Of a stretch of DNA of 23,657 bases, positions 2,898-21,307 are shown piece by piece (within the stretch, counting starts at the first letter, position 1; each line of letters begins with the position of its first letter). The translations under genes were made by a program, and so were the position numbers. Source of the DNA: a virus; IMG/VR virus record IMGVR_UViG_3300030101_002635, positions 1 to 23,657 of that record. One strand, given 5' to 3'. The notes beneath the pieces are model-generated. The model did not search any database and was not told where the DNA came from. It saw only the letters and a list, made by a program, of their open reading frames with translations.

Positions 2898-3686
2898 TTA
2901 AGCGGCTTCTGGTATACCCTGAAACTTTCTGTTCAGAATTCTTCGCACCTTAGAATAATTGATATTTGCATCGTTGTGAAGTGAATTAACCTGATTTGCA
3001 ATCTTTCGTGGACCTAGACCACGATCAGCTAATCGATGTATTGTTTTTAGAATTTTCTGCTCTTCCTCAATCGGCTCAAGCCTGACACGCTTTTTATTGC
3101 CGTGCCACTCTGTTACGCCACGAAATCCGTAGGGTGGCTTGCCACCAATAAAATAACCACGCTCTGCCCAATCAACCTTGCCATCGCCAAATCGGTCTTT
3201 TATAGTAGCGTGTTCGATCTCAGAAACTGCTGACAAAACCATCAACATAATCTGGTTTGCCATCTCATTCATATCGAACTTGCTTCGCAAACCTTTCTTC
3301 TTTTCAGCTTTCGGGTAGACAATCGGCATCTCACCAAACTGCTCAGAGAAATAGAGCGATATACCAATGTCCTGCAAAGTCGGAATCATTGACAGCAGAT
3401 CCGCACTTGAACGCGACAGTCGATCCAGCTTGGTCGCAACAACCACATCGAATCGATCAATAACGTCAGTAAGATCCTTACTGGCAGGACGCTCAAGAAT
3501 TGGGCGCGTGCCGCTTACGCCATCGTCAATAAAGAACTGGTCAACTGGGCGATTGTACTTTTGCTGCACAAAGGCGCTGATCTGGCGTTGTTGCACTTCG
3601 ACAGAAACGCCAGAGCGAACCTGTTCTCGCGTGCTGACACGCACATAACCATAGATGTTATTGACTTGCTTGATCGGTGTAATCAC
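2898..3686 (-). CDS. serine recombinase (resolvase/invertase family, 262 aa)
   Basis: The N-terminal catalytic domain shows YGYVRVSTREQ with nucleophile Ser18 and Arg16, then ATKLDRLSRS (about 84-92), the usual arginine-bearing segment of resolvases. A short Recombinase-type region (GGKPPYGFRG, about 175-185) and a C-terminal helix-turn-helix-like segment (GLGPRKIANQVNSL) follow. At 262 residues it is longer than Gin/Hin-type invertases (about 180-190) and much shorter than large serine integrases. The start is GTG at 3686, preceded by GGGGAGG and overlapping the upstream stop by four bases (GTGA). It could be the phage integrase, a fibre-module invertase or an acquired resolvase; no flanking crossover sites were recognised. 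Confidence 0.9.
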   Translation of the reverse strand: MITPIKQVNNIYGYVRVSTREQVRSGVSVEVQQRQISAFVQQKYNRPVDQFFIDDGVSGTRPILERPASKDLTDVIDRFDVVVATKLDRLSRSSADLLSMIPTLQDIGISLYFSEQFGEMPIVYPKAEKKKGLRSKFDMNEMANQIMLMVLSAVSEIEHATIKDRFGDGKVDWAERGYFIGGKPPYGFRGVTEWHGNKKRVRLEPIEEEQKILKTIHRLADRGLGPRKIANQVNSLHNDANINYSKVRRILNRKFQGIPEAA

Positions 3687-10454: not shown

Positions 10455-13400
10455 TCATCTTCCGCCGACTCGTAGTCGAATCTCGGCGTTGGTGAAGATA
10501 TCGCCTGTGTCTTCATTGAGGGGTTTAGGGACATCAATCCCAACGGAGTTGTCGATTCTCGCATAAGCGTCTGCCTCTCCTCTTCGTCTTAATAAATTGT
10601 AAGTCTGCGATGGCAAATCACCGACTTCATCAATCAGGTAATCGGGAGGAATTAATTTATTGCTGCCAAGGAACCGCAACAACATTCTCCGCAACGCCTC
10701 ATCTGCTGGCACCGCAACATCCACAAGATTTACCTTGTAGCCAGCCTTCTTGTAATCAGCTATCTGCCTTGAAATTTTTTCAGGCTTGGCACCAACAGTC
10801 GGAACCACAATGTTATTTCGGTTGGCAATCATCAAGTCACGCAAATCTTGCGTAATTCTTTTCGACTCAACATGGGTGGCATTCGATCCGATACCCTCTG
10901 CAAACTCAGGCATGATCTTCTTGACTTCATCAGGATCTAAGATCGCAGCATCATACTTTCGCGCCAATGGGTTGGCGATCATGCTCTTGCCAGCTGCTGG
11001 CGGTCCCAGAATAATCGTTGCGACAGGATTCTTGTTACCACCCTTCACAGTGCCAGTGTACGGCACGCGGTCATCATCCCAGCCTAACCGCTTTAGTTTA
11101 TCATACATTTGCTCCAAAGCGTTATCTATTCCAACAACTTCCCTGCCGTCAATATTGAAACGCCGCGTGGCAAAGTATGTTTTGGTTCCATAACCTTTCG
11201 CCAACTTGGTCTCAGGTATCGCGTGCATCTGGGCGACCACTCTGGTAACCGCAGGATGCGATCTCACCGCTTGCCTGACTTCAGGATTTATCCGCGTGGA
11301 GCGCAACATCCGATCAAGATCAGATATCGCATCAGGATCAGGCATGTACTGCAACAACCGCGCTGCTCTTGGCGCTGTCAGCAAAGCACGTACACCACCG
11401 CCAAAAAGTGGAATTGCAGCAGCAGCATCGCCTGTGCCTGCTAACGCCTGAAGTGCAGCATCAAGATACTTACCACTTTCAATATTCTGAGCCAGTGAGG
11501 GCAAAGGCTCTCCGCCAAAAATGTCGGTGTCCTCTGCCGTTGGCATCGCAGGCAAGTTGCCTGAAATGTCGGCTATGCCAGAGCCGGGCACTGTCATTAC
11601 TGTCGCAAGATAAGCAGCTTGCTCTGGCGTGAGCAATTCCTCTCTCTCAAGAGTGGGATTGCGGATCATTTCAGAAACCGAGCCACCAAGGTTGTATTCA
11701 AAGATATCAATATCGTCCGTGTTCACTGCGCCACCTTGTGCATAGTCAGTACCAAGTTTTTCATTCATGTACCGAATCATGTTGTCTATCTTTTCATCAG
11801 TCATTGGCTCATACAAATGTTTTCTTTCCAAAGCTCCGATCTGCTCTCTGCGTGTAAAAGGCTGACCAGCTTTGTTAATTGATTCACTGAGCATTTTCAT
11901 CGTATCTGGAAACATGATTTCTGGAGGTATACTTTCTTGAAGACCGCCTATGTAAGTGCCGGGTATGCTCATGTTATAACTCTGGTGTAGTGGCTCTGAA
12001 AAAATATCAATGTCTGGTTGAGCGCTAAACATCGAATAACCAGAGGAACCTGATTCTATATTCGCTAAAGGTGGGCTGGTGGCTGTTTGCACAATATCAT
12101 CATAAATAGGAAATCCGAGATCCCTGAACTTGGCTTTTTTCATGTGTTGGACAACCGCCTTGCGAATCTCGCCTGCTCCCCTCCTTGGGAATCCACCCTC
12201 ACCCAAAAGCTGATTGAAAACATCAGGACTGGTGACTCCAACAAAATCTGGAATAGGATCGATGCTCGTACCAACGCCAGCGCGAACTGCATCATCAAAT
12301 TCTTTAATGGCTTTCTTTGACAAACCCAAGGCTGGTATCTGAGCCACCATTGCTGAAGCGATAGGGGCAGAAAAGTCAATTCCCTCCCTTGACATCGCTG
12401 AATAAACTCCAATTGGCTCCAAGCCAGTTCTTTCCGCAGCCTTGATCATATTATTTTGTTTTGACTGAGCGACTCCCTCCATCGATGCCCAGCCACGACC
12501 TTGAGCTTGATTTGCAATCGTGTAATCAGGTCCACCCTGTAACGGCACTGCCCTTGACAATGGAACACCTTTAACCTCTGAAATTGTCTCAACACCTCTT
12601 CCCTGCAAACTCACTGAACGATCACCAACAACGGGCACAAGCACCTTGTTGGATAGCGCTTCTGGGCTGACAATTACACGCGCTGACGGATCAAACTGGG
12701 CAATCTCACCCTCAAGTCGCAATTTTTCGCGGTTAAACACCGCAGGCTTTGTAAGGGTTTTTTTATAACGAGTCGTATTGCTTTTGGCAGTTTTTGGCGT
12801 AGCGCCCAAAGCTACTTGTTTTTCAAAAAAATCATCAAGCAAATCATTTTTGGTGATACTGCTTTTACTCGCCAGCTTCAATGTCTTGGCAGTTGCTTGT
12901 GGAACTTTCAAAGCTGTTCCAACCGCAGCGAATGGCGTTGCCTGCAAAACATCGCCAGCCACGCCTAATCCTTGCAGTGCCGCTGTCCCAAGATTTCCTT
13001 GACGAATATTTTCGGCTAAAGATAAATTCGGATCTGAAGAAAATATGTCAGTGATGTCTGCATCGCCTGTCGGCATACCAGCCATCTTACCTGACGCATC
13101 AATCGTTGCGGAGCCGGGCAGAAGCTGGGAACCAAAGTAGGCTAGCTGTGTGGAAGAGGGCAAATAATCAAAGATATCGACATCTTCAGAGGAAACTTCT
13201 CCACCCTCTGCCTTTAGGATGTCTGGAGATTCTATTTCATCTGGATCAAACTTGGCAAATGGAGAACGTAGGTCTTTTGGATCAAATACGGCAAAAGTTT
13301 CATAAGGAACATCTTGCGGTTTCTCAGCAATTTTCTTGGGATTTGTAACGGTGTCCTCTCTGAGAAACATTGAGTCATAACCTTTGCCTTTAAGAAAATC

Positions 13401-14369
13401 AACCATTTCTTTGTTTTCATACAAAATAAAATTACCGCTTTTCAAGGCATCTTTATAAGTCGGCATATTATCCGCTGGGCTGAAAGGCTCACTCATTTTT
13501 TCACTGCCAAAAAATTCTTCCAGAACATCTACATCTTTGTGCGGCACAAAAGGTTTTTTGGTTTTGGATACAAGGGGGTAAATTACTTTATCTGCATCAC
13601 GTATGTTTTGAGCAATTTCTTGAAATTTTTTATCGTATTCTTCATCGTAAAGTTTCAGAATTTCATCTTCCGAAAGTCCTTTAGCTTTTTCTTCAAATTC
13701 ATCGTCTAATTTTTTTTTCCTTTCTTTTTCTTTTTTAACTGATACACCATCTTGCCTTTCCCGAAACTTGCCTTTGCCAAGCCAGTTTTCAGCAAACTCT
13801 GGATCAGGCGTTGTGTATATCATTCCATCAGGATAAAAAGATTTTAATTCAGTTATATCTTGCTTGCTGGCATGGTAGAGCCTGCCTTCTGGTGCCATAT
13901 TGAAACCAAGTCTTGAAGCTCTTTGAATTCTTTCGCTTGGCTCTTGAAAATCATCACCAAACCTTGCTTTGTTTGCCTCTTTGCGTAGCTCTGCGATCTT
14001 TTCAGCTTTGCTTGCCGCCCTAGCTGCCCTCATCGGAGCAATTGCAGCCATCGCTGGTGGAAAGAGATCGCCAATTCCGCCAGCAACTTGCAACCCAGCG
14101 TCTAAAAGCTCACGATTGCGGATATTCTCCAATAATGATGGACCTCTGGGGCCAGCAGTCATCTCAGCAACGGTCATTTCGGGGTTAGTGGGGAAAGCTG
14201 GGTACTCACCAAAGATATCCGCTATGCCAGAACCAGTAGCAAAGCCACCAGTGAGGTTGGCGAGTTGCGCTGGAGAGATATTGATCGGATCAGCTTCAGG
14301 TTGAGGATCTCGCATCAGTGGAGCGACAGAGCCTCCAAGGTTGTATGCGAAAATGTCGATATCCTTCAC
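10455..14369 (-). CDS. three-module polyvalent protein with ADP-ribosyltransferase-like and zeta-toxin domains (1304 aa)
   Basis: Residues 3-102, about 396-476 and 886-984 are three copies of one module: DIDIF, a GG-x-V-type hinge (GGSV in copies 1 and 3), a PGSGIADI-like core, then LAENI and AALQ segments. After copy 1 (about 163-370), LYHAS with Y-T-T-P-D-P-E-F-A and later AVFDPKDLRSPFAKFDP match the ADP-ribosyltransferase-like domain of phage polyvalent proteins. After copy 2 an unrecognised region with VPLQGGPDY and GRGWASMEGV lies at about 540-870, with another DIDIF at 786-790. After copy 3, GPPAAGKS (1122-1129) is a zeta-toxin Walker A. The GTG at 14369 overlaps the nuclease stop (GTGA) and follows GAGGAAA. 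Injected multi-effector status is inference. Confidence 0.8.
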   Translation of the reverse strand: MKDIDIFAYNLGGSVAPLMRDPQPEADPINISPAQLANLTGGFATGSGIADIFGEYPAFPTNPEMTVAEMTAGPRGPSLLENIRNRELLDAGLQVAGGIGDLFPPAMAAIAPMRAARAASKAEKIAELRKEANKARFGDDFQEPSERIQRASRLGFNMAPEGRLYHASKQDITELKSFYPDGMIYTTPDPEFAENWLGKGKFRERQDGVSVKKEKERKKKLDDEFEEKAKGLSEDEILKLYDEEYDKKFQEIAQNIRDADKVIYPLVSKTKKPFVPHKDVDVLEEFFGSEKMSEPFSPADNMPTYKDALKSGNFILYENKEMVDFLKGKGYDSMFLREDTVTNPKKIAEKPQDVPYETFAVFDPKDLRSPFAKFDPDEIESPDILKAEGGEVSSEDVDIFDYLPSSTQLAYFGSQLLPGSATIDASGKMAGMPTGDADITDIFSSDPNLSLAENIRQGNLGTAALQGLGVAGDVLQATPFAAVGTALKVPQATAKTLKLASKSSITKNDLLDDFFEKQVALGATPKTAKSNTTRYKKTLTKPAVFNREKLRLEGEIAQFDPSARVIVSPEALSNKVLVPVVGDRSVSLQGRGVETISEVKGVPLSRAVPLQGGPDYTIANQAQGRGWASMEGVAQSKQNNMIKAAERTGLEPIGVYSAMSREGIDFSAPIASAMVAQIPALGLSKKAIKEFDDAVRAGVGTSIDPIPDFVGVTSPDVFNQLLGEGGFPRRGAGEIRKAVVQHMKKAKFRDLGFPIYDDIVQTATSPPLANIESGSSGYSMFSAQPDIDIFSEPLHQSYNMSIPGTYIGGLQESIPPEIMFPDTMKMLSESINKAGQPFTRREQIGALERKHLYEPMTDEKIDNMIRYMNEKLGTDYAQGGAVNTDDIDIFEYNLGGSVSEMIRNPTLEREELLTPEQAAYLATVMTVPGSGIADISGNLPAMPTAEDTDIFGGEPLPSLAQNIESGKYLDAALQALAGTGDAAAAIPLFGGGVRALLTAPRAARLLQYMPDPDAISDLDRMLRSTRINPEVRQAVRSHPAVTRVVAQMHAIPETKLAKGYGTKTYFATRRFNIDGREVVGIDNALEQMYDKLKRLGWDDDRVPYTGTVKGGNKNPVATIILGPPAAGKSMIANPLARKYDAAILDPDEVKKIMPEFAEGIGSNATHVESKRITQDLRDLMIANRNNIVVPTVGAKPEKISRQIADYKKAGYKVNLVDVAVPADEALRRMLLRFLGSNKLIPPDYLIDEVGDLPSQTYNLLRRRGEADAYARIDNSVGIDVPKPLNEDTGDIFTNAEIRLRVGGR
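11418..11714 (-). repeat. module copy 3 of the polyvalent protein
   Basis: This covers residues about 886-984, with DIDIFEYNLGGSV, PGSGIADI and PSLAQNIESG. It is more similar to copy 1 than to copy 2 and precedes the zeta-toxin domain. Confidence 0.65.
12942..13184 (-). repeat. module copy 2 of the polyvalent protein
   Basis: Residues about 396-476: DVDIFDY, then LPGSATIDASG, MPTGDADITDIF, LAENIRQGNL and AALQGLGVAGD. The GGSV segment is missing, and an AEGGEV linker comes before it. Confidence 0.6.
14064..14363 (-). repeat. module copy 1 of the polyvalent protein
   Basis: Residues 3-102: DIDIFAYNLGGSVAPLM, then GSGIADIFGEYPAFPT, SLLENI and LDAGLQVAGGIGD. It precedes the ADP-ribosyltransferase-like domain. 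Confidence 0.65.
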
Positions 14370-16113: not shown

Positions 16114-18297
16114 TTACCAGTTTCTCTCACTGAATTTATCCCCCACATTATCATCGTTTTCGATAGGCTTATAGTCGATATCGTAGATTTTTCTGCCACC
16201 AGTTCGCCGTGCTTCAACGCCATAATCAGCTAACGTGCGTGCCGCTTCTTTGAAGTCTGGCATCCGTGGATTAGCTATCCCAAGATCACGCAACAGCTTT
16301 GTCATTTGAACTGGCTCAGTGAGATTGCTGTCGAAGTTTACGTGTTCAAGGATAAGATCCTCCACGCTGCTTTGCGTCCTGTGCATTTCGTTGGCTTCGT
16401 TCAACAACGCCCTTTCTTCCGCATTGAGGAACCAGTTGCGCTCACCCTCGACATATAAAGTCTCTTTCACCTCTGCCCAGACTTGTTGCATATTGAGTTG
16501 ATGCTTATTATCGATTGCCTTCACAGGCACAACCCAGAACCGCCTGTTTCCACTTGTATCGACCAAGAACTCTCGCTGGTTGACGCTGGCAAAGAAACTG
16601 GTGCGCCGTTTGTACGTTGTAAAAGCTCTGTCGTATGGCAATCTGAGTTCATCACTTTTGCGCGTAATGAACGCCTTTAGTTGATCAATGTCGGCTTTCT
16701 TAAAAGTTGATTCCACTTCGCCAGCTTCAACGATCCAGTGGCTGACCGCTTGCTTCACGCTGTCTTTATCGGCTGGGTTGATCGTGGCACCTTCCAAAAG
16801 CCAATCTTCCTTCGCTGGGCATAGCTTTTTAAACCAAAGCGTCTTGCCCATGCCTTGCGGCCCTTGGAATATAAGTATGCCCTCCAGTGCTACACCGTCT
16901 GGTTCATAAGCTGCTGCAATCGATGAAAGCATCCACTTTTTCATTAGCATTTCTTTCAGATCAGAGTTATCGCTCTCAACCGTGTCGAGAAAAAGTGGCA
17001 GTCGCATCTTTCCATCCCACGGTCGGCTGTCAATCCATTCCTTCACAGGGTTGTATTCACTCGCTAAGAGTTTGAGGCAATCCCTGACCCGATTATGCGG
17101 CATACCCATCTCGATGCAGCGATCTTCGATTTCAATGAGTGCGCTTTCGTCTTGCATATCCTGAATGAAGTCGGAGTTTGGCACGGCGATCTCCATGCGC
17201 TTTTTGATGACGTTGTACCTGACATCAATCTGGTTTACCAACAGCACACCTCTGATGTTTTCTTTGGTGTTCATGTAACGACCGTTGGCGCTTTTCTGGA
17301 AATCGTAACTGGCTGGCACGTTGATGCTTTGCAGTGCTGGCAACACTTCGCCTTCTATCTCCTCGCTTACCAGCGTTTGCTTATGGTCATTGTAATCGCC
17401 TTTTGCCGTTGGCATCAGCACCTCTGCCTGAGAACCAGCGTCTTTGATGATCTGCGCTGCTTTAATTGCCTCTTTCTCCCCTGTCTGACTCTCGTCAAAG
17501 TCAGCGATGAAAACGTGCTTTGCCTGTGGAAAAAATTTGACAATGACCTCTGCAACAGGCGAGAGATTGAACGCATCAAATGCGACAATCACTGGCTGGT
17601 TAAGATCCTCAAAATAACTTGCGCCAGTTGCGTAGCCTTCTGCGTAGTTGATAATCTTTGTGTTTTGTTTAAGAACGTCCTTACCAATGATGAAGAAACT
17701 GCCTTTCTTTTTACTACCTGTAAGGAATTTCTTGCCGCCATCCTCATCAATGAACTGCAACCCAACCACTTGCAAGTCTTCATCTTGCATGGGAACCAAG
17801 AGTTGATTATTGTCTCCCACCTTGAGTCCGTGGTTTTCTACCCCCTTCTTTTTTAAGTAGGGATGAATTTGAATCTCTTCAGCTTTGCTCCAGATATTTT
17901 GGGCACGCTTTGCTGCTCGTGTGTGCTTCTCAGCTTTTTCGATTTCAGCCTGTTCTTTCAACTGCCTGATCTCTTCACGCTGCTCATCGGTAATCGTTCG
18001 GCTCCCTTTATTTTGCGGTTTCCAAACAGCCGTAGGCTTTTTATGATCGATTCTATAGTCGCCAGCTTGTCCAAAGGGCAGGCTTTGATCCAACCAGAGT
18101 TGATACCAGCCAACCAGTTTGCGCTTGCCATCTACATCCATGTAAGCCCTGCCGATGCTCCCATCAACTATCAGACCTTTGTTTGGATCGACCTCCATGC
18201 CGTTCTGAGCCAAGAAGCTCTGGAACTCCTCCCGATAGTTTCCTGAGAGCGGTGTGTCGAAGTTTTTGATGTTCGGTCTTTTTATTTTTAACGACAT
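16114..18297 (-). CDS. primase-helicase (Toprim plus VirE-like ATPase, 727 aa)
   Basis: Toprim-type residues are at Glu220 (NYAEGYATG), Asp266/Asp268 (FIADFDES) and Asp301 (GDYND). A P-loop helicase/VirE domain follows with Walker A GPQGMGKT (479-486), WIVEAGEVES (521-530) as Walker B, FFASVNQ (568-574) as sensor and TSGNRRFW (581-588) with probable arginine finger. A coiled-coil region (about 103-135) precedes the Toprim domain, and no CHC2-type zinc motif is present. Primer synthesis plus unwinding at the replication fork is expected. The ATG at 18297 follows AAAGGAA. It is divergently transcribed from the SSB-like gene. Confidence 0.85.
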   Translation of the reverse strand: MSLKIKRPNIKNFDTPLSGNYREEFQSFLAQNGMEVDPNKGLIVDGSIGRAYMDVDGKRKLVGWYQLWLDQSLPFGQAGDYRIDHKKPTAVWKPQNKGSRTITDEQREEIRQLKEQAEIEKAEKHTRAAKRAQNIWSKAEEIQIHPYLKKKGVENHGLKVGDNNQLLVPMQDEDLQVVGLQFIDEDGGKKFLTGSKKKGSFFIIGKDVLKQNTKIINYAEGYATGASYFEDLNQPVIVAFDAFNLSPVAEVIVKFFPQAKHVFIADFDESQTGEKEAIKAAQIIKDAGSQAEVLMPTAKGDYNDHKQTLVSEEIEGEVLPALQSINVPASYDFQKSANGRYMNTKENIRGVLLVNQIDVRYNVIKKRMEIAVPNSDFIQDMQDESALIEIEDRCIEMGMPHNRVRDCLKLLASEYNPVKEWIDSRPWDGKMRLPLFLDTVESDNSDLKEMLMKKWMLSSIAAAYEPDGVALEGILIFQGPQGMGKTLWFKKLCPAKEDWLLEGATINPADKDSVKQAVSHWIVEAGEVESTFKKADIDQLKAFITRKSDELRLPYDRAFTTYKRRTSFFASVNQREFLVDTSGNRRFWVVPVKAIDNKHQLNMQQVWAEVKETLYVEGERNWFLNAEERALLNEANEMHRTQSSVEDLILEHVNFDSNLTEPVQMTKLLRDLGIANPRMPDFKEAARTLADYGVEARRTGGRKIYDIDYKPIENDDNVGDKFSERNW

Positions 18298-18363: not shown

Positions 18364-19053
18364 ATGGCACTATTACTAAGTTCAAGCGGTGGCGGAGATC
18401 GAGAAGTCTTACCACCAGACAACTATAAGGCAATCTGTTACAAAATTGCTGATCTTGGAACCAGAGAAACGACTTTTGAAAACGATCCGCCAAGAAAACA
18501 GCGGAGGATATACATTTGGTGGGAGATAATGCACCCCAAAATGGAAGATGGTCGCCCTTTCTCTGTTGGCAAAGAATATACCATGTCTTTAAATGAGAAT
18601 TCCAACTTGCACAAAGACTTGAAGTCATGGCGAGGCCGCAGTTTCACTGAAGAAGAATTAGGCGGTTTCGACATCGCTAATATTCTGGGTGTGTCTTGCG
18701 ATCTTGAAATAATTCATACCAGTGGTGGCAACATGAAAGTCTTGTCAGTCTTCAAACCTGATGGCGGTGCAAAGAAAACCCCAACTCACAATGAGTGCGA
18801 ACTTTTTGAGCTTGAGGAATATGTCAAAGAGTGGAACGGCGAAAGCACAGCGAAGAGCAAAGAAATGTGCGATATTTTTGCTGACTTTCCAAACTTTCTT
18901 CAAGAAAAAATCAATGAATCGTTTGAGATGAAAGCAGTTGAACAATCTAGCAAAGTTAAAGATGGTTTGGCTGAAATGGCTAAGTTGACTGCTGCTCCAA
19001 AGCAAAAAGAGGCAGTTGAGGGGGACTTCATAGACGATGATATTCCTTTTTAG
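18364..19053 (+). CDS. SSB-like protein (229 aa)
   Basis: The N-terminal part (about 20-130) has an OB-like pattern (YKAICYKIADLGTRE, RIYIWWEI, SVGKEYTMSLN, then FDIANILGVSC). The C-terminus is acidic and ends DFIDDDIPF, the typical SSB tail that recruits other replication proteins. The first 15 residues are a flexible SSSGGGD-type start. The ATG at 18364 follows AAGGA. It opens the rightward replication unit, consistent with an ssDNA-binding function. The identity rests on fold and tail pattern, not on a recognised family name. Confidence 0.7.
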   Translation: MALLLSSSGGGDREVLPPDNYKAICYKIADLGTRETTFENDPPRKQRRIYIWWEIMHPKMEDGRPFSVGKEYTMSLNENSNLHKDLKSWRGRSFTEEELGGFDIANILGVSCDLEIIHTSGGNMKVLSVFKPDGGAKKTPTHNECELFELEEYVKEWNGESTAKSKEMCDIFADFPNFLQEKINESFEMKAVEQSSKVKDGLAEMAKLTAAPKQKEAVEGDFIDDDIPF

Positions 19054-19058
19054 ATTTT

Positions 19059-19250
19059 ATGCTCAAAATACACATTCATAAAGACGGCTATTTGGATGCC
19101 GACATTGAGAACGCATCTGCCTCTGATCTGGCGGATGCGCTTGAAATGCTGCATTACCTAGCGCGTGATTTGAAGCATCAGGATATGGGTTGGAAAATCC
19201 TTGATGTGGTTGATCAGATAAACGAGAGGATTCGCAATGAGCATCGATGA
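19059..19250 (+). CDS. hypothetical protein (63 aa)
   Basis: The ATG at 19059 lies 5 bases after the SSB stop and has no strong ribosome-binding site, so reinitiation from the upstream gene is likely. The protein begins with beta strands (MLKIHIHKDGYLDADI) and continues as an acidic helix. It overlaps the next start by 14 bases in another frame. Function unknown. Confidence 0.55.
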   Translation: MLKIHIHKDGYLDADIENASASDLADALEMLHYLARDLKHQDMGWKILDVVDQINERIRNEHR

Positions 19251-19482
19251 TGCAACACCTGAAGAATGGGACAAAGTAAATTCACCCAAGCATTACAACC
19301 AGCACGGTGGACCCGAAACCATTGAAAGCATTAAGGCTTCGCTGGGTCAAGCAAAATTTGTTGGCTATTTACACGGCAACATCATCAAATATGGATCTCG
19401 CTGGGATAAAAAGGGCCAGCCTGTGGAGGATTTACAAAAAATGATGTGGTACACGAAACGACTAATTGAGGAGTTGGAATAA
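19237..19482 (+). CDS. DUF3310-like protein (81 aa)
   Basis: The pattern N-S-P-K-H-Y-N (about 15-21), a Pro/Glu-containing ETIESI segment, then YLHGNIIKYGSRWDKKG, followed by a helix with MMWYTKRLIEE, is the DUF3310 arrangement found in many tailed phages. The ATG at 19237 has GAGAGGATTCGCA upstream. DUF3310 genes commonly sit in replication clusters, as here. Biochemical function is unsettled to my knowledge. Confidence 0.75.
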   Translation: MSIDDATPEEWDKVNSPKHYNQHGGPETIESIKASLGQAKFVGYLHGNIIKYGSRWDKKGQPVEDLQKMMWYTKRLIEELE

Positions 19483-19485
19483 GGC

Positions 19486-20532
19486 ATGGCGCAGATTGTT
19501 CTTAAATCAAATCCAATAGAAAAAGACGAAATTCTGGAGGAGCTTTCTCAAAACTTTGATTTTGAATTTTCTGGGGTTTCTGAAACGTGCGTGCCTACTT
19601 TGGAAGAGTTGCCGAAAGATTTTCAAATTGGTTTGATTGTTGGTCCATCTGGCAGTGGTAAATCCACCATGTTGAAACTATTTAACGAAGAAAAAACGCC
19701 AGTTTGGTCTGAGAGCAAAGCTATAGCATCTCACTTTGTTAACGCACAAGACGCTCAAGACAGGTTGAGCGGTGTTGGCCTCAACTCGGTCCCAGCGTGG
19801 TTTAGGCCGTATCACATACTTTCAACAGGTGAGCAATATAGAGCTAACCTCGCTAGAAAATTAAATAATGAAGCGGTTGTGGATGAATTTACCAGCGTTG
19901 TGGACAGATCAGTTGCCAAGTCGTGCTCTCGTGCCGTGTCAAGATACATTAAGAGTAACGACATTCATTCAATGGTTTTTGCGTCTTGTCATTACGACAT
20001 CATCGAGTGGCTGGAACCAGATTGGGTTTTTGACACTTTGACTCAAAAATACCTTTCAAGGGGGTCACTTTGGCGTGCCAAAATTGAATTGGAAGTTGTA
20101 CCATGTTCGGCGCTTGCGTGGTCAATCTTCAGCAAGCATCACTATTTGTCAGCAAACCTCAATAAAAGTGCAAAGCACTGGATGTGCAGTTGGGACGGAA
20201 CACCAGTTGCCTTTACCTCTGTGATTGCCATGCCAAGCGGCACGTTGAAAAACGCTTTCAGAGGTCACAGAACAGTTGTCTTTCCAGATTATCAAGGTCT
20301 TGGAATCGGGGTCAGATTGAGTGACGCAATCGGTCAAATTTATGTCAGCGAGGGTAAAAGATATTTTAGCAAAACGACTCACCCTCGCATGGGAGCTTAT
20401 CGGAACGCATCGAATAAATGGAAAGCTACTTCTAAAAATATGCGCGTCAGAGGCGATTTTGGAGGGAATAAAAACATCGAATGGGAACCACGTAAAGTGT
20501 TTAGCTACTCACACGAATTTATTGGAGGTTAG
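19486..20532 (+). CDS. ABC-type ATPase fused to GNAT (Mom-like) acyltransferase-fold domain (348 aa)
   Basis: Residues 53-61 are a Walker A (GPSGSGKST), 112-126 the signature-like LSTGEQYRANLARKL, 130-140 the Walker B (EAVVDEFTSVVD) and His169 (SCHYDI) the switch histidine. There is no membrane segment, so it is not a transporter. The C-terminal 205-348 is GNAT-like: HHYL at 218-221, then QGLGIGVR (about 270-277), the acyl-CoA loop, and KTTHPRMGAYRN. The HHYL pair resembles the His-Tyr pair I recall as important in phage Mu Mom, a GNAT-fold DNA-modification enzyme. ABC-GNAT fusions are annotated in many bacteria, but the role here is unknown. It sits between replication genes. Confidence 0.7.
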   Translation: MAQIVLKSNPIEKDEILEELSQNFDFEFSGVSETCVPTLEELPKDFQIGLIVGPSGSGKSTMLKLFNEEKTPVWSESKAIASHFVNAQDAQDRLSGVGLNSVPAWFRPYHILSTGEQYRANLARKLNNEAVVDEFTSVVDRSVAKSCSRAVSRYIKSNDIHSMVFASCHYDIIEWLEPDWVFDTLTQKYLSRGSLWRAKIELEVVPCSALAWSIFSKHHYLSANLNKSAKHWMCSWDGTPVAFTSVIAMPSGTLKNAFRGHRTVVFPDYQGLGIGVRLSDAIGQIYVSEGKRYFSKTTHPRMGAYRNASNKWKATSKNMRVRGDFGGNKNIEWEPRKVFSYSHEFIGG

Positions 20533-20533
20533 A

Positions 20534-21307
20534 TTGGAATTCAAAACAGGCATTTACGAAAACTTGGATTACGAAACTTACGATTCGATCCCTGCGTGGC
20601 GATCACATGATCTTACTTCGATTGCAAAGTGTCCATTCACTTGGAAGAATAAGCATCAGGTAACCACTTCACCAGCCTTGATCGAGGGCAGACTGCAACA
20701 CTCTGTCTTCCTTGAGCTTGACAAGTTTGATGAGGAGTATGTTATTGAGCCGCCCCTTGATCGAAGAACCAAGATTGGCAAAGCCGAATACGAGGATTTT
20801 CTGTCTGGTTTGAACGGCAGAACACCAGTTAAGCAAGATTTGTTTGATGTGTGCATGGAGCGCCGTGAAGCGATGGCTGAGTTCATTCCAGAGCCACACC
20901 ATCGATGTGAGTTGACGCTTTGTTGGGAGTGGCATGGTCATCCATGTAAGGGCAAACTTGACTGGCATACTGGCACAGACATATGGGATCTCAAGACTTG
21001 CCGTGATGCTTCGCCTCGCGGTTTTCGTTCAGCTATCAACAACTTCCTGTATTTCCAACAGGCCGCTTACTACCTCAACGGTTGCCGCTCCGTTGGTTTG
21101 CCAACCGAAAAGTTTTATTTTCTCGCAGTTGAGAAAGCGCATCCTTATCCTCACGCCGTTTACACGTTGAGCGATGAAGCCATCGTTTACGGCAATGCAA
21201 AGAATGAGCAAGCATTGTCCCTTGGTTTGAAGTGTCAGGAGAACAATGATTATCGCCCTTTCAACAATTCTGGCGTGGTAGAGTTTGGCGTTGATGAACT
21301 CTACTGA
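20534..21307 (+). CDS. RecB-like PD-(D/E)XK nuclease (257 aa)
   Basis: His56 (GRLQHSVFLEL), Glu127 (CELTL), Asp143 (KGKLDW), D-L-K at 152-154 (IWDLKT) and Gln176/Tyr180 (FQQAAYY) form the RecB/Cas4-like exonuclease signature; the DUF3799/PDDEXK_12 group is the likely family. I place the start at TTG 20534 because GGAGG ends five bases before it; the only other starts (GTG at 20321) would place the N-terminus deep inside the preceding gene. Phage exonucleases of this type process ends for recombination or replication. An iron-sulphur ligand set is not evident. Confidence 0.75.
   Translation: MEFKTGIYENLDYETYDSIPAWRSHDLTSIAKCPFTWKNKHQVTTSPALIEGRLQHSVFLELDKFDEEYVIEPPLDRRTKIGKAEYEDFLSGLNGRTPVKQDLFDVCMERREAMAEFIPEPHHRCELTLCWEWHGHPCKGKLDWHTGTDIWDLKTCRDASPRGFRSAINNFLYFQQAAYYLNGCRSVGLPTEKFYFLAVEKAHPYPHAVYTLSDEAIVYGNAKNEQALSLGLKCQENNDYRPFNNSGVVEFGVDELY

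Follow-up and report, generated by a model that had tools for sequence, protein, structure and literature searches.

An ABC ATPase-GNAT fusion gene in a viral contig and its candidate role in modification of phage DNA bases

Enzymes of the Mom family form carbamoylmethyl-adenine in DNA. TmcA, in which a RecD-like helicase-type ATPase is combined with a GNAT domain, acetylates a cytidine of tRNA. According to an annotation note in a sequence record, the com gene of Mu regulates the translation of mom. As cited in the jumbo-phage survey of Iyer et al. 2021 (PMC7824862), Iyer et al. 2013 predicted that an ABC ATPase-coupled GNAT acyl-modifies a DNA base, and the survey repeats this prediction and cites QAX98348.1. 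We examined a gene of this type in the window, i.e., the whole stretch of 23,657 nucleotides of viral DNA, for which an earlier note had suggested an ATP-dependent DNA-modification or anti-restriction system on the basis of a His-Tyr motif resembling that of Mu Mom. This DNA-modification idea is already published as a prediction for exactly the ABC-GNAT family; what we add is evidence that its members occupy the position otherwise taken by Mom or by a DNA methylase.

The fusion gene and its family

The open reading frame reported in the earlier note (19486-20532, plus strand) is real, and all of the motifs quoted from it (GPSGSGKST, LSTGEQ, DEFTSVVD, HHYL, and QGLGIG) are present. Its features, with the number of family members that keep the key residues, are as follows.

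19486..20532, plus strand: ABC-GNAT fusion gene, ATG start, 348 aa, PHROG 11143 family
19486..20055, plus strand: N-terminal ABC ATPase domain, residues 1-190 (Pfam ABC_tran; fold match to ABC ATPases, Z ~13)
19642..19665, plus strand: Walker A, GPSGSGKS, residues 53-60 (K59 in 106/106)
19819..19833, plus strand: ABC signature, LSTGE, residues 112-116 (S113 and G115 in 106/106)
19876..19908, plus strand: Walker B and D-loop, VVDEFTSVVDR, residues 131-141 (D133, E134, and R141 in 106/106)
19987..19998, plus strand: H-loop, CHYD, residues 168-171 (H169 and D171 in 106/106)
20059..20529, plus strand: C-terminal GNAT domain, residues 192-348 (Pfam Acetyltransf_1; also modelled separately with AF2)
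20137..20148, plus strand: HHYL motif at the end of GNAT helix 1, residues 218-221 (H219 in 104/106, Y220 in 106/106)
20293..20310, plus strand: acyl-CoA pyrophosphate loop, QGLGIG, residues 270-275 (Q270 in 105/106, G271 in 106/106)

The fusion described in the earlier note is borne out by both domains exceeding their Pfam cut-offs, ABC_tran with 28.9 bits (just over the cut-off of 25) and Acetyltransf_1 with 21.3 bits (just over 20.7), and by an AF2 model, built from a 52-sequence alignment, that contains two well-defined domains (pLDDT 86, pTM 0.76). In this model the ABC half matches MJ0796 (1l2t; Z 13.6, rmsd 3.5, 173 residues aligned) and the GNAT half matches 1y9k (Z 14.2, rmsd 3.3, 137 aligned) and RimI (5isv; Z 13.6, rmsd 3.0, 131 aligned). 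The GNAT domain modelled alone (pLDDT 85.6; Z 14.1 to both 1y9k and RimI) agrees with the full model. Transporter ABC ATPases have a Q-loop glutamine, in contrast to ABC-GNAT proteins, whose family alignment shows no glutamine that is invariant in the stretch from Walker A to the signature, and no transporter family appeared among the matches of the neighbour family scans. Assignment to a known defence system was rejected, the only PADLOC result being a match to mad3 confined to the Walker A region (2.4e-5, residues 50-65).

PHROG 11143, whose function is not annotated, matches the window protein over residues 8-347 (E=9.2e-108), and the best named match is QAX98348.1 from Aeromonas phage AsFcp_2, to which 99% of its length aligns with 48% identity. 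Thus, the full-length profile match, the ABC motifs together with QGxGxG and HHY, and homology to the published exemplar all place the protein in the ABC-GNAT family, which is a large, conserved phage and prophage family with at least 596 viral and at least 422 genome matches. Its members in cultured phages include those of Pseudomonas phage Komp_PAO1_1, Nonlabens phage P12024S, and the Gordonia phages Jace and Axumite. Among 106 diverged members, collapsed at 65% identity, K59, S113, G115, D133, E134, R141, H169, D171, Y220, R262, and G271 are kept in every one, and the GNAT residues H219 and Q270 are near-invariant (104 and 105 members, respectively), implying that both halves are strongly constrained and that the ABC and GNAT motifs are not due to chance. 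The family tree divides into two well-supported halves. The window protein falls in clade I (42 rows, support 97), whose genes are free-standing and have no ParB upstream, and thus outside clade II (63 rows, support 96), which is mostly ParB-coupled.

Several variants of the architecture were observed. A GNAT-only second copy lies directly 3' of the ABC-GNAT gene in loci L286, L290, and L291, and several Firmicutes phages, together with one viral contig, encode the ABC and GNAT parts as two genes side by side (L082, L086, L087, L092, and L075); at L082, L086, and L087 these split genes have ParB upstream and an ASCH-like gene downstream. Planctomycetota dominate the best genome matches (L133-L212), and most of these loci appear to be prophages because many have terminase and portal genes downstream.

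Genomic context of the window gene and its relatives

Two genes adjoin the fusion gene as operon neighbours.

19237..19482, plus strand: DUF3310 gene directly upstream, probably not part of the enzyme (PF11753, E=9.9e-20)
20534..21307, plus strand: RecE/exonuclease VIII-like PDDEXK nuclease directly downstream (phrog_412 2.7e-56, PF12684)

The nuclease likely starts with TTG at 20534, just after a GGAGG sequence. Of the placement proposed earlier, between SSB-side genes and a nuclease, the nuclease is confirmed and the SSB label is not, the sole match of 18364-19053 being phrog_862, which has no annotated function. Elsewhere in the window, the minus strand encodes a protein of 1304 aa with a Zeta-toxin/AAA kinase domain at its C-terminus (10455-14369), probably a large multidomain phage protein, a Toprim and VapE-like primase-helicase (16114-18297), and a serine recombinase (Resolvase N-terminal domain; 2898-3686) that adjoins tail genes, likewise in the related contigs L217 and L219.

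The 23.7-kb record of the window, which is probably a fragment, contains no ParB, Mom, or PanD gene. ParB is upstream in none of the 79 loci sampled from the window's clade, and the clade is also without Com and formyltransferase partners; whole records of clade I contain ParB in 1 of 27 and Mom in 4 of 27 (with a stop inside two of the four). Considering that clade I genes sit among varied replication genes and that the related phages L217 and L219 carry ABC-GNAT at another place in the genome, the neighbours in this clade say little. Since the ParB, Com, and formyltransferase partners are lacking, a DNA-modification role in the window phage would be assigned by homology to clade II and not by local context.

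The place of known DNA-modification genes is occupied by relatives of the window gene and not by the window gene itself. In 10 Porphyromonas gingivalis phages the preceding tail genes are common to all, and the slot contains ABC-GNAT in five, Mom in four, and nothing in one (PP754930). DNA homology between Porphyromonas phages (81-91%) stops at L126:5540 and starts again at L126:7551. All four Mom genes were recognised by a separate Mom profile, and the one scanned with Pfam matched PF25680 at 2e-55. In L126, the one slot annotated in detail, a formyltransferase-like gene follows ABC-GNAT. Comparison of L126:5540-7551 with L125:5826-6708 gives a clean cassette swap at the right end of these Mu-like phages, with ABC-GNAT plus formyltransferase on one side and Mom on the other.

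A second group of slots, in Mu-like phages, is linked by Com (PF10122), the zinc-ribbon translational activator of Mu mom. Com precedes ABC-GNAT in Komp_PAO1_1, L048, and L056, and a Com profile match was also found at the ABC-GNAT locus L064; among other Pseudomonas phages, Com precedes Mom in PAN70 and JD024, whereas in B3 the gene that it precedes is a D12 adenine methylase. A ParB-like gene lies upstream of ABC-GNAT in 66 of 79 viral loci and 69 of 80 genome loci (two samples), usually overlapping its start; according to the ORF calls, the overlap is most often 21 nt. This gene is homologous to the ParB portion of type II methylases (3.7e-38), and a ParB-methylase fusion is encoded near ABC-GNAT in L237. 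Some phages, such as Aeromonas AsFcp_2, carry both ABC-GNAT and Mom, and Mom is near ABC-GNAT in several loci; the two are therefore not simple substitutes there. In Microbacterium phage Antuna (L127:2469-3728), ParB, a Mom-like gene, and tRNA-Gly lie side by side, with ParB preceding Mom. Although Antuna has this tRNA gene, a tRNA as co-encoded acyl donor was rejected, no tRNA gene being found in the window or the 60 loci scanned.

A PurN-like formyltransferase gene follows ABC-GNAT in 19 loci and is limited to one fully supported subclade of the ABC-GNAT tree. Thirteen of the 28 phage records with this formyltransferase also have ABC-GNAT (0.03 expected), and the count is 4 of 19 when the Gordonia phages are collapsed to one (0.02 expected). 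The protein has GYHPSLLP in place of the usual N-x-H motif, and because the catalytic Asn is missing its activity is uncertain. A PanD-like aspartate decarboxylase gene adjoins ABC-GNAT in Jace and a Gemmataceae isolate and lies farther off, at least 1 kb away, in L149 and L221. The genes directly 3' of ABC-GNAT are L088:6978-7403, L201:1508-1891, and L188:6220-6510, and the Gly-Ser self-cleavage motif of PanD is kept in L088 and L201. PanD was rejected as a fixed partner, strict adjacency being limited to these three loci, two of which (L188 and L201) belong to one isolate.

Proposed activity and alternative explanations

We consider it probable that ABC-GNAT is an ATP-dependent nucleic-acid acyltransferase that adds an acyl group to a base in the DNA of the phage that encodes it, with an exocyclic amine as the likeliest site. 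The enzyme would thus play the same biological part as Mu Mom, possibly for an anti-restriction purpose. Beyond the two domains themselves, we infer the following steps. The ABC domains would dimerise around ATP, and through ATP binding and hydrolysis the dimer may clamp or open DNA, or flip a base, and so present it; acyl-CoA would be bound at QGLGIG of the GNAT domain, which would transfer the acyl group from CoA to the exocyclic amine using the invariant His-Tyr pair. The ParB-like partner present in most relatives probably directs the enzyme to its target, and the formyltransferase-like enzyme of one subclade may elaborate the product. The Porphyromonas slot swap, Com and ParB upstream, the invariance of residues, the published prediction, and the co-carriage of Mom support the DNA-modification reading. 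On the other side, the window's clade is without the tell-tale partners, a shared slot can have causes other than common chemistry, the GNAT fold matches are ordinary N-acetyltransferases, many of which acetylate proteins or small molecules, and co-carriage also argues against simple substitution. A more specific version, in which ATP-driven acyl transfer by the family equips DNA bases with an amine-bearing (amino-acyl-like) group, is doubtful; partner enzymes would then elaborate the group, with the PurN-like formyltransferase N-formylating it in one subclade and the PanD-like decarboxylase supplying or trimming it in others. If true, this would amount to a branched pathway of DNA hypermodification that yields new bases, and the window phage would have its minimal, unelaborated form.

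Whether the likeness to Mom reflects ancestry is a separate matter. The alignment with the Mom family suggested in the earlier note gave no PF25680 match to the window protein at E<=1 in Pfam; the ABC-GNAT profile did not recognise Mom proteins in the reciprocal search, and the GNAT and Mom profiles aligned with an hhalign probability of 1.2% (E=0.044). Membership in the Mom family was rejected on these profile results and on the loop at the GNAT motif A position: QGxGxG lies 49-63 residues after HHY in 104 ABC-GNATs, whereas none of 40 Mom proteins has it at a corresponding distance; a QGxGxG-like regular expression matches 28 of the 40, almost always 26 residues before the HY motif and outside the GNAT loop. 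The solved Mom structure, 8bv8, is not among the matches listed for the GNAT-only fold comparison. The HHY of the window protein pairs with the Mom KHY in a weak pairwise alignment (E=0.15), with the His-Tyr pairing shifted by one in the profile alignment, and HHY may occupy a place at the end of helix 1 comparable to that of KHY, which is suggestive and not proof. Thus, of the two parts of the earlier proposal, ATP-dependent DNA modification fits the published prediction and the mom swap, upstream com, and upstream ParB seen in relatives, and relatedness to Mom beyond the shared GNAT superfamily is not upheld. That ABC-GNAT is a true but distant Mom-family member that gained an ABC domain, an ancestry compatible with the DNA-modification reading, would account for a His-Tyr motif that may end helix 1 in both proteins and for the weak alignment there, but is very unlikely in view of the failed profile matches and of a canonical QGxGxG where Mom has none. 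ABC-GNAT probably does Mom's job though it is not of the Mom family.

The GNAT domain might instead acetylate a host or phage protein, such as a restriction enzyme or RNA polymerase, and use ATP to handle its substrate. Its best fold matches include protein N-acetyltransferases, e.g., RimI, and acetylation of RNA polymerase by a phage GNAT has a precedent (Rac, as cited in PMC7824862); however, GNAT fold matches do not tell substrates, and this explanation, which we regard as unlikely, leaves the exchange with mom, Com upstream, and the methylase-type ParB partner unexplained. An action on tRNA, as by TmcA/NAT10, which make N4-acetylcytidine, would share the logic of an ATPase coupled to a GNAT, and TmcA (2zpa) is among the Foldseek matches (E 8e-6), but the ATPase is of the ABC class and not a RecD-like helicase, the window and scanned loci have no tRNA gene, and the com, mom, and methylase context points to DNA, so such a substrate seems scarcely probable. 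The adjacent RecE-type exonuclease, in the same region as replication genes, could also point to a Rad50-like ABC accessory of recombination or repair with a regulatory GNAT. This is highly improbable considering that the neighbours of relatives vary (terminase and portal genes in many prophages, a tail-end slot in Mu-like phages, another position in L217 and L219), that the GNAT residues are as invariant as those of the ATPase, and that the ABC half has about 190 aa without a coiled coil.

Comparison with known systems

ABC-GNAT is a large family whose chemistry is so far predicted, and its occurrence in related phages in exactly the place of mom or a DNA methylase makes the tagging prediction directly testable, the exchange with mom in sister phages providing natural near-isogenic comparisons. 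Like Mu Mom (PF25680, 8bv8), ABC-GNAT belongs to the GNAT superfamily; its His-Tyr pair, close to where helix 1 ends, may correspond to that of Mom, and in phages related to that of the window the two share an interchangeable genomic slot and the Com and ParB partners; Mom differs in having neither an ABC ATPase nor the QGxGxG loop and in showing no sequence-family match to ABC-GNAT. TmcA/NAT10, in which an ATPase joined to a GNAT acylates a nucleobase amine with ATP, is the closest working analogue, although its ATPase is of the helicase type, its substrate is RNA, and the match is at the fold level only. If the proposed activity is true, base modification powered by an ABC motor would add a mechanism new for DNA, with a counterpart in that of TmcA on tRNA. 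The ParB-N6/N4 methylases (phrog_498; PADLOC MTase_II) resemble clade II in pairing a ParB-like module with a DNA-modifying enzyme, but they take methyl from SAM and have no GNAT, and the window itself is without ParB. The ABC-GNATs of Iyer et al. 2013/2021 (QAX98348.1) agree with the window protein in domain order, full-length homology, and predicted role. Nothing essential differs between them, and the window gene is a new member of this family in a clade without ParB.
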